Part shown: positions 12,799-23,149 of the stretch, piece after piece | How the letters are laid out: the number at the start of each line of letters is the position of its first letter | Numbering within the stretch: the stretch's first letter is position 1 | Source of the DNA: a virus | Virus record (IMG/VR): IMGVR_UViG_3300042864_002183 | Span: 1 to 26,333 of that record | Strand: one strand, 5' to 3' | Length of the DNA: 26,333 bases | The notes under the pieces: model-generated | Databases searched by the model: none | The model's input: the letters and a program-made list of their open reading frames with translations, nothing else | What the model was told of the DNA's origin: nothing | Position numbers and translations under genes: made by a program

Positions 12799-12870
12799 CG
12801 CAGGGAGGGACGGTCCCAGGCGAGCCTCATACTCTCGCCCCTGCGGGTTCAACTCCCGCCCCTGCAACCA
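12799..12870 (+). tRNA. Initiator-type tRNA-Met(CAU)-like gene with a shortened D-arm
   Basis: 72 nt with CCA encoded. Acceptor CGCAGGG (12799-12805) pairs with CCCTGCA (12860-12866) except for C1-A72, the mismatch typical of bacterial initiator tRNA. The T-arm is perfect: GCGGG, loop TTCAACT, CCCGC (12843-12859). The anticodon loop CTCATAC gives U33, anticodon CAU (12828-12830) and A37. The variable loop is 5 nt. Oddities: only 13 nt for positions 10-26, so no normal D-arm; a C-U mismatch at the top of the anticodon stem; and no run of three G-C pairs in that stem. It could be a functional minimal tRNA, a decaying one, or a tRNA mimic. Confidence 0.65.
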
Positions 12871-12881
12871 CTCACCCCATC

Positions 12882-13073
12882 ATGACCACACCAATCCAGC
12901 GACTTACGCGTCTCCTCAATGAAGGGGCGCGGTTCATGGTTGAACTGCCAGGGCAAACGTCCATCGACCTCACACCGGACGTGATTGCCGCGATGGCACA
13001 GGCTCAAACCTGCAACGTGCAGTGCGCCAAGATAACGATCACGATTGAAGCGAATCGAAGGGGCGAAGAGTAA
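12882..13073 (+). CDS. Small protein of unknown function (63 aa)
   Basis: Short protein with an amphipathic helix (IQRLTRLLNEGARFMVELPG) and a C-terminal strand KITITIEANRRGEE. No family recognised. It starts 11 nt after the tRNA-like gene with an AC-rich leader and ends in a TAATG junction with the HNH gene. Supported by coupling to the next gene and reasonable composition only. Confidence 0.55.
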   Translation: MTTPIQRLTRLLNEGARFMVELPGQTSIDLTPDVIAAMAQAQTCNVQCAKITITIEANRRGEE

Positions 13074-13450
13074 TGCAGATGACGTTCGACATCTTCGAAA
13101 CGAAATCCCCGGGCATGGGCATTGGCGAAGAGAGCTGGAGGCCCATCACTTACGCCCCGGGATACGAGGTTTCGACGTTTGGTAAGTTTAGGCACCTAAT
13201 CAGAGGTTCGCTCAAAGGGACGAAAGCTCACAACGGATACATCCACATCGGTCTGATGATCGATGGCTATCAGAAGTGGATGTTGGCACACAGGGTCGTG
13301 GCCATGGAATTTCTGGAAAATCCGAAGAGCCATCCCGTGGTCAATCACATTGACGGCAACAGGGAAAACAACCGTGTCGATAACCTTGAGTGGGCAAGCA
13401 GATCCCACAACGCCCGCGACATGTGGGCACGAAAGAAGGGGCATGTCTGA
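13073..13450 (+). CDS. NUMOD4/HNH homing endonuclease
   Basis: 125 aa. NUMOD4 motif ESWRPITYAPGYEVSTFG (20-37) followed by an HNH domain: HRVVAMEFL with H73, then NHIDGNRENN (91-100), DNLEW (103-107) and a closing SHN. These are free-standing or intron-borne homing enzymes that nick DNA and spread their own gene. The ATG overlaps the stop of the preceding gene (TAATG). Residues 1-15 (MQMTFDIFETKSPGM) are not part of the usual domain, so Met15 or Met16-like internal starts around 13115 are possible. No group I intron core was found nearby. It is probably a mobile insertion in the phage. Confidence 0.88.
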   Translation: MQMTFDIFETKSPGMGIGEESWRPITYAPGYEVSTFGKFRHLIRGSLKGTKAHNGYIHIGLMIDGYQKWMLAHRVVAMEFLENPKSHPVVNHIDGNRENNRVDNLEWASRSHNARDMWARKKGHV

Positions 13451-22426: not shown

Positions 22427-23149
22427 ATGAGTGAAGCCCAACGTGACGAGGTGATTCCACGCGGAGCCTGGCAGTTCGATCAGGAAGTGACCGCAGTGTT
22501 CGACGACATGCTCCAGCGGAGCATCCCGCAATACAACGCGATGCGGATGGTGACCTTCGAAGTTGGCCGGCGATTCGTGCAACCCGGCACCGCCATCATC
22601 GACATGGGATGCTCCCGCGGCCAGGCGCTGCTGCCGTTCGTCTCAAACTTTGGCGCGGCCAACGATTACATCGGCCTGGAAATCAGCGATCCGATGATCG
22701 AGGCGGCGCGTCAGAACTTCACCTACCACCCTCACGGCAATCGCGTCAGCATCCAGTCTGCCGACCTGCGCCACGAGTTTCCCGGTGTGACCTCCAGCCT
22801 TGTGCTCTCGGTGCTCACCCTGCAATTCACCCCCATCGAATACCGTCAGCAGATCGTGCGACGGGTGTTCGAGTCACTGGCTCCCGGTGGAGCTTTCATC
22901 CTGGTAGAGAAGGTTCTCGGTGCCACGGCGAAACTCGATGAGGCGTTCGTGAATCTCTTCCTCAACATCAAGCGGGAGAACGGATATTCCGAGAGCCAGA
23001 TCGACCGCAAGCGGATGTCACTCGAAGGCGTGCTGGTTCCCGTCACCGCACGCTGGAACGAGGAACTTCTCCATCAGGAAGGTTTCACATCGGTCGATTG
23101 CTTCTGGCGGCATCTGAACTTCGCCGGATGGGTGGCGGTGAAGCCATGA
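22427..23149 (+). CDS. cmoA: Carboxy-SAM synthase homologue (CmoA-like)
   Basis: 240 aa. E. coli CmoA turns SAM and prephenate into carboxy-SAM, used by CmoB on tRNA wobble uridine. Matching blocks from memory are FDQEVTAVFDDMLQRSIPQY (17-36), RRFVQPGTAIIDMGCSRG (48-65), LTLQFTPIEYRQQIVRRVF (130-148), the NGYSES block and NFAGWVAVK at the end, over nearly the full length. Arg196 in DRKRMSLEG aligns with the E. coli Arg199 that I recall binding the carboxylate, which argues for carboxy-SAM rather than plain SAM. No CmoB is seen here. The gene sits between a HAD-like phosphatase and the terminase, and its stop overlaps the terS start by 4 nt. Confidence 0.88.
   Translation: MSEAQRDEVIPRGAWQFDQEVTAVFDDMLQRSIPQYNAMRMVTFEVGRRFVQPGTAIIDMGCSRGQALLPFVSNFGAANDYIGLEISDPMIEAARQNFTYHPHGNRVSIQSADLRHEFPGVTSSLVLSVLTLQFTPIEYRQQIVRRVFESLAPGGAFILVEKVLGATAKLDEAFVNLFLNIKRENGYSESQIDRKRMSLEGVLVPVTARWNEELLHQEGFTSVDCFWRHLNFAGWVAVKP

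Follow-up and report, generated by a model that had tools for sequence, protein, structure and literature searches.

Background

Initiation and formylation in Bacteria have been tied to a small set of tRNA features, namely a mismatch at 1:72, the pairs G2-C71 and C3-G70, and A11-U24 (PMC7949028). In the ribosomal P site, the 16S rRNA residues A1339 and G1338 contact the tRNA pairs 30-40 and 29-41 (PMC11497404). An anticodon stem of four base pairs occurs in 82 of 50,849 bacterial tRNA-fMet genes (0.2%; PMC13092985), a rarity which suggests that an open 31:39 may harm ordinary initiation. VapC toxins cleave tRNAs between the anticodon stem and the loop, and several of them target the initiator (PMC8522696). 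Phage tRNAs with altered anticodon loops have been proposed to evade nucleases of the VapC or PrrC type, and where tRNA-fMet is a target of VapC, phages as a rule do not carry it (PMC10264068).

Here we describe a 72-nt cloverleaf encoded on the plus strand of a 26,333-base virus record, the whole of which is referred to as the window. As far as sequence comparison can tell, it is a genuine tRNA gene, maintained by selection in a temperate group of Verrucomicrobiota phages. Its identity as a tRNA is well supported, while its function is one that we infer: on balance, we think that it serves these phages as a formylmethionine initiator tRNA of their own, in which the D-arm is miniature and the anticodon stem is open at its base.

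The element and its surroundings

The element takes up 72 nt of the 88-nt gap that separates a gene for a 201-aa protein from an ORF of 63 aa (Table 1). The preliminary description had placed a C1·A72 mismatch, U33-CAU, a perfect T-arm and an encoded CCA in this sequence; these are confirmed and the coordinates are exact, and A73 is present as well. The upstream protein scores 114.9 bits with NF038070, just below the cut-off of 125, and its matches to the Pfam families DUF1016_N and HTH_ParB both fall below the cut-off. The body of this LmbU-like protein falls to about 50% identity, while the last residues, KKDFKLILDIYEAL, hardly vary in most relatives adjacent to the RNA; they may mark a recombination boundary.

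The replication genes of the window encode a Sak4-like annealing protein, an exonuclease, a helicase, a primase and a clamp-loader-like protein, and the other products include HNH and ParB-like proteins, a CmoA-like protein and a terminase. The gene for the CmoA-like carboxy-SAM synthase (22427-23149; TIGR00740 with 167 bits, cut-off 193; PHROG "tRNA methyltransferase") recurs in eight related loci that extend to this region; a CmoB partner was not seen in the set of scanned genes. A NUMOD4/HNH endonuclease gene (13073-13450) lies near the RNA in six related loci only, and therefore probably entered this position, behind the 63-aa ORF, by recent homing.

Table 1. Parts of the miniature tRNA and its neighbouring genes, in window coordinates
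Feature	Position	Strand	Evidence or remark
Miniature initiator-type tRNA (CAU), whole	12799..12870	+	Coordinates, relatives, pair counts, fold
C1, unpaired with A72 (12866)	12799	+	C·A in 41/44 variants
Acceptor stem, 5' strand GCAGGG (2-7), partner 12860-12865	12800..12805	+	99.4% of cells paired
A8, lone linker nucleotide in place of canonical U8	12806	+	A in every variant
Miniature D-arm, stem GGGA/TCCC, loop CGG (proposed G18 G19)	12807..12817	+	Pair counts, predicted fold
Anticodon arm GGCGAG-CCTCATACT-CTCGCC	12819..12839	+	Stem shifted up (25'-30 with 40-45), 31:39 unpaired, 9-nt loop
Anticodon CAU	12828..12830	+	44/44 variants
Short variable region CCT	12840..12842	+	3-4 nt beyond the extended stem
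T-arm GCGGG-TTCAACT-CCCGC	12843..12859	+	100% of cells paired
A72 (12866), A73 (12867), encoded CCA (12868-12870)	12866..12870	+	Sequence, counts in 44 variants
Upstream gene, LmbU-like / ParB-HTH-like DNA-binding protein, 201 aa	12188..12793	+	Stop codon 5 nt before the RNA
Downstream small ORF, 63 aa	12882..13073	+	Begins 11 nt after CCA; homologues at +83/+84 in most loci

Structure and detection

The minimum-energy fold of the element is a cloverleaf (-33.6 kcal/mol, z=-2.65), and fold and pair counts alike give acceptor, D, anticodon and T arms. For the counts a padded alignment (alignment A4; 30 distinct sequences) was used; the MAFFT alignment (A3) had misplaced the D-arm and the variable loop. 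In the padded alignment 93.8% of cells are paired, a value that leans towards the proposed structure, to which the alignment was registered by hand; the minimum-energy folds of single sequences agree with that structure. Pairs in which both partners have changed number 11, against 6.4 in shuffled alignments (none of 500 reached 11), among them the replacement of A4-U69 in the acceptor stem by G4-C69. The covariation score is 0.256 against 0.116, and pairing falls to 46-58% in a control with the partners slid. The stems are thus maintained by compensatory changes.

These data correct the picture of the D region. The arm GGGA-CGG-TCCC, with a stem of 4 bp and a CGG(N) loop, has 97.5% of its cells paired, and at three of the four pairs both partners have changed; therefore the earlier opinion that the RNA has no room for a D-arm was wrong. 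A subgroup with GCGGGG has an even smaller arm (GGA-ATGT-TCC). The D region measures 14-16 nt in the miniature forms and 18-22 nt in the other CAU tRNAs collected, with none at 17, and a single A links the D-arm to the anticodon arm. The canonical core of U8, A14, R15 and A21 with G18 G19 is missing: position 8 is A throughout, the loop retains only the GG, of which some variants (TG loop) keep one G, and U8, A14, R15 and A21 have no counterpart, so that the three-dimensional fold is uncertain.

ARAGORN reported no tRNA in the window, and the Rfam model RF00005 did not match the element up to an E-value of 1. One relative (L284) reaches 26.6 bits with RF00005, below the gathering score of 29, and a few relatives outside the phage group are called tRNA-Met. 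The element is probably missed because these models expect a canonical D-arm. The rejection in a covariance search that the preliminary description had regarded as fatal did occur with the general tools, but is overturned by a model specific to the family (see below) and by the covariation. Two other assignments were rejected. RF00233 (Tymo_tRNA-like) gave 25.3 bits (E 0.17) over the arms against a gathering score of 40, and the element lacks the pseudoknotted acceptor of that family and is not a member. A two-piece tmRNA finds no support, as the element has a complete anticodon arm and CCA. What the common annotation tools miss here appears to be a naturally evolved minimal initiator tRNA, and phage-borne initiators are therefore probably under-counted.

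Distribution among phages

A first pattern scan of viral contigs returned about 30 relatives of identical length; a second added more, including some in genomes of Verrucomicrobiota (Akkermansiaceae and Verrucomicrobiaceae), where the same RNA is found in prophages. Homologues of window genes flank the RNA in about 50 loci, mostly at about 611 nt from the LmbU-like gene start and 83-84 nt from the 63-aa ORF. An alignment of the upstream protein, used as query, retrieved 51 loci of at least 49% identity. Downstream of the LmbU-like gene, and no more than about 250 nt from it, 49 of them have the RNA (a count that includes L116 and several near-identical loci); it was not seen in the other two (L308 and L309). 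The expectation that related phages keep it is thus borne out, in the same place. Distant LmbU-like homologues (L313, L316-L339) have no RNA at the same locus. The RNA is still 86% (about 85%) identical between phages whose upstream proteins share 52% and whose third codon positions share 41%. Since RNA identity is uncoupled from protein identity, exchange of the RNA between phages by recombination is likely, as judged from these comparisons. Two or three copies of the phage group can reside in one genome, each with its own miniature initiator (L190 and L203 on one 278-kb Verrucomicrobiota contig; L211, L234 and L237 in one MAG).

The spacing to the downstream ORF, fixed at +83/+84 in most loci, raises the question of a tRNA-like 5' element acting in cis, which would either stay in the mRNA and control the 63-aa gene or leave a nearly leaderless mRNA upon excision. 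There is also no obvious Shine-Dalgarno sequence ahead of 12882. However, the RNA family occurs without these neighbours in other phage contexts (L046, L050, L081 and L149), the RNA can be separated from the upstream gene by small inserted ORFs (L269, L272), and such a role does not require an encoded CCA or a mismatch at 1:72; we regard it as improbable. In the same four loci and in L093, the CAU tRNAs with a miniature D-arm and no LmbU-like neighbour have 31:39 paired where checked, which suggests that the small D-arm arose or spread independently of the open stem.

Integration often takes place in tRNA genes and the phage group is temperate, so the RNA might also be what is left of an attachment site, or a host tRNA that was captured and is decaying. 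In three host copies on long contigs an integrase is encoded on the opposite strand, 31-39 kb downstream of the RNA (the prophage ends being unmapped); the group therefore looks temperate, with the RNA in the middle of the phage and away from the attachment site, and an attachment-site remnant was rejected. Decay, which the preliminary description had allowed for among relatives, is excluded by full length, compensatory changes and strong conservation; the element is no decayed relic. An unrelated element does seem to occupy the host initiator gene in one case, but taken together this origin is very improbable indeed. In that case (L262 at G005:C14:171606, and G005:C14:99270), a second copy of the 3' half of the host initiator lies about 72 kb away from the complete gene, which itself has an integrase beside it, as would probably result from integration of the unrelated element into the host initiator tRNA gene.

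Initiator character and the anticodon arm

Among the 44 distinct variants found, 1:72 is C·A in 41 and C·T in one, G2-C71 is kept in 43 and C3-G70 in all, A73 is present in 43, CCA is encoded in 40, and U33 is as invariant as the anticodon. Position 11 is a purine (R11:Y24) in all except the outlier L149, which has C11-G24. Hence G2-C71, C3-G70, R11:Y24 and A73, the last also one of the formylation determinants, are all in place. A covariance model made from the phage RNAs alone (R1) gives 42.7 and 37.2 bits with host initiators but 25.1 bits with the host elongator tRNA-Met, a preference of about 12-18 bits for the initiator, and the miniature RNA is about 56% identical to the former and 45% to the latter. 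Across 388 genomes of the phylum, R1 exceeds 70 bits in three only; the other matches listed do not exceed 55 bits and include the identified initiator of G005. The designation "initiator-type" is supported by this model preference together with the 1:72, 2:71, 3:70, 73, 11:24 and anticodon identities.

The three G-C pairs at 29-41, 30-40 and 31-39 of bacterial initiators are absent, as previously noticed: the element has A29-U41, G30-C40 and C31·U39. A29-U41 recurs in 40 of the 44 variants, G30-C40 in 42, and 31:39 is open in 40, its mismatch being kept while the bases vary (A·C 19, U·C 12, C·C 6). The stem gains 26:44 instead, and in many variants 25':45, leaving a 9-nt loop. Overall, 31:39 is unpaired in 39 of 48 miniature forms versus 9 of 113 longer CAU tRNAs. 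Host-type Verrucomicrobiota initiators likewise have A29-U41, so within the three pairs 31:39 is the only break from the host, and 30-40 and 29-41 keep the identity of the host initiator.

In other tRNAs, decoding has been reported to broaden when the anticodon stem is shortened (PMC13092985), and in tRNA-fMet a change of pair 30-40 affects how start codons are discriminated (PMC11497404). The open stem could accordingly denote an initiator with deliberately relaxed start-codon choice, superwobble permitting AUA or other starts. Yet genes of the relatives begin overwhelmingly with ATG, GTG or TTG, a search for unusual start codons in the phage group gave nothing convincing, and the apparent exceptions resemble misplaced starts, many with a normal start codon nearby, so that we give this idea a slim chance.

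Possible function

If the RNA is a working initiator, it would be cut from the transcript of the replication-module operon by RNase P and trimmed at the 3' end. It would be charged by the host MetRS through CAU and A73, formylated by the host Fmt, for which the unpaired C1·A72, G2-C71, C3-G70 and R11:Y24 are kept, and would avoid EF-Tu through its open 1:72 end. IF2 could then place it in the P site, to which it would present pairs 30-40 and 29-41 identical to those of the host initiator. The most likely effect of the open 31:39, C38 and the remodelled D-arm would be protection from a nuclease or modifying enzyme whose substrate is the host initiator, so that initiation could continue for the phage. 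By analogy with the phage tRNAs cited above, the RNA would probably sustain initiation when the host initiator is cut or limiting.

Change is concentrated in the D-arm and at the base of the anticodon stem, the region of VapC-type cuts, and seven likely host genomes contain 6-30 PIN-domain genes each, although PIN domains are common in many genomes and these counts give plausibility only. Replacement of the host initiator is favoured for these reasons among the three functions suggested earlier; that of altered start-site choice finds no support in the start codons. The third, a decoy that is charged, formylated or bound without being used in initiation and that occupies Fmt, IF2, MetRS or an initiator-cutting toxin, is the main rival, though an unlikely one. 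The acceptor end and the T-arm, which hold the Fmt and IF2 determinants, are most conserved while the ribosome-facing stem base is opened, and initiators with an open anticodon stem are counter-selected in Bacteria (PMC13092985). On the other hand, a decoy at the acceptor end has no need of the invariant CAU and U33 or of the host identity at 29-41 and 30-40.

More tentatively, it is possible that this minimal initiator, with its unpaired 31:39 and 3-nt D-loop, goes unrecognised by host initiator-cutting toxins and modification enzymes during infection. If this were true, a tRNA-fMet architecture that has been considered inadmissible would be tolerated in initiation. The RNA allows a direct test of which initiator features, such as the D-arm core and the third G-C pair, the ribosome needs, and it bears on whether phages and host toxins compete over the initiator tRNA.

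Comparison with known systems

The miniature RNA resembles the host-type Verrucomicrobiota tRNA-fMet (L260 and L261; the former reads CGCGGGATGGAGC...GTCAGGCTCATAACCTGA...TCCCGCAACCA) in C1·A72, G2-C71, C3-G70, A73-CCA, purine 11:pyrimidine 24, U33-CAU, A29-U41, G30-C40 and the T-loop TTCAA. It differs in its D region (14-16 nt as opposed to 18-22), in lacking the U8/A14/A21 core, and in the open 31:39, C38 and the stem extended at 26:44 (and 25':45 in many).

Phage-borne CAU tRNAs are annotated as tRNA-fMet in the Caulobacter phage CcrSC and occur unannotated in the Erythrobacter phages ZS04 and R6L and in the Xanthomonas phage Elanor, but all of these copies have full-length D-arms and a paired 31:39. 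Those of ZS04 (L360, about 1504), R6L (L363, about 585) and Elanor (L361, about 1527) lie downstream of the terminase large subunit gene, look initiator-like, and belong to cultured systems. In viral loci of IMG/VR, CAU tRNAs with an unpaired 1:72 are common and often the sole tRNA of the stretch, so phage initiators look widespread on this evidence. No isolated phage was found with the miniature form, no isolate record covering 80% of the RNA, and no description of it was found in the literature searched, a scope that mostly leaves aside subscription journals and preprints. Initiator-like tRNAs of phages are therefore already known, and the form with a miniature D-arm and an open stem appears to be new.

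As in the nuclease-resistant phage tRNAs (PMC10264068), the phage copy differs from that of the host at the cleavage region; unlike the pattern described there, the initiator is fixed in a whole phage group. In the tRNAs with 4-bp anticodon stems (PMC13092985) one terminal pair is opened; in the miniature RNA it is the bottom pair, which leads to the 9-nt loop, and the open stem of 0.2% of bacterial tRNA-fMet genes is here the rule. Thus, this phage group runs opposite to both trends in the literature, as it encodes a tRNA-fMet, and one with the open stem apparently purged in Bacteria.
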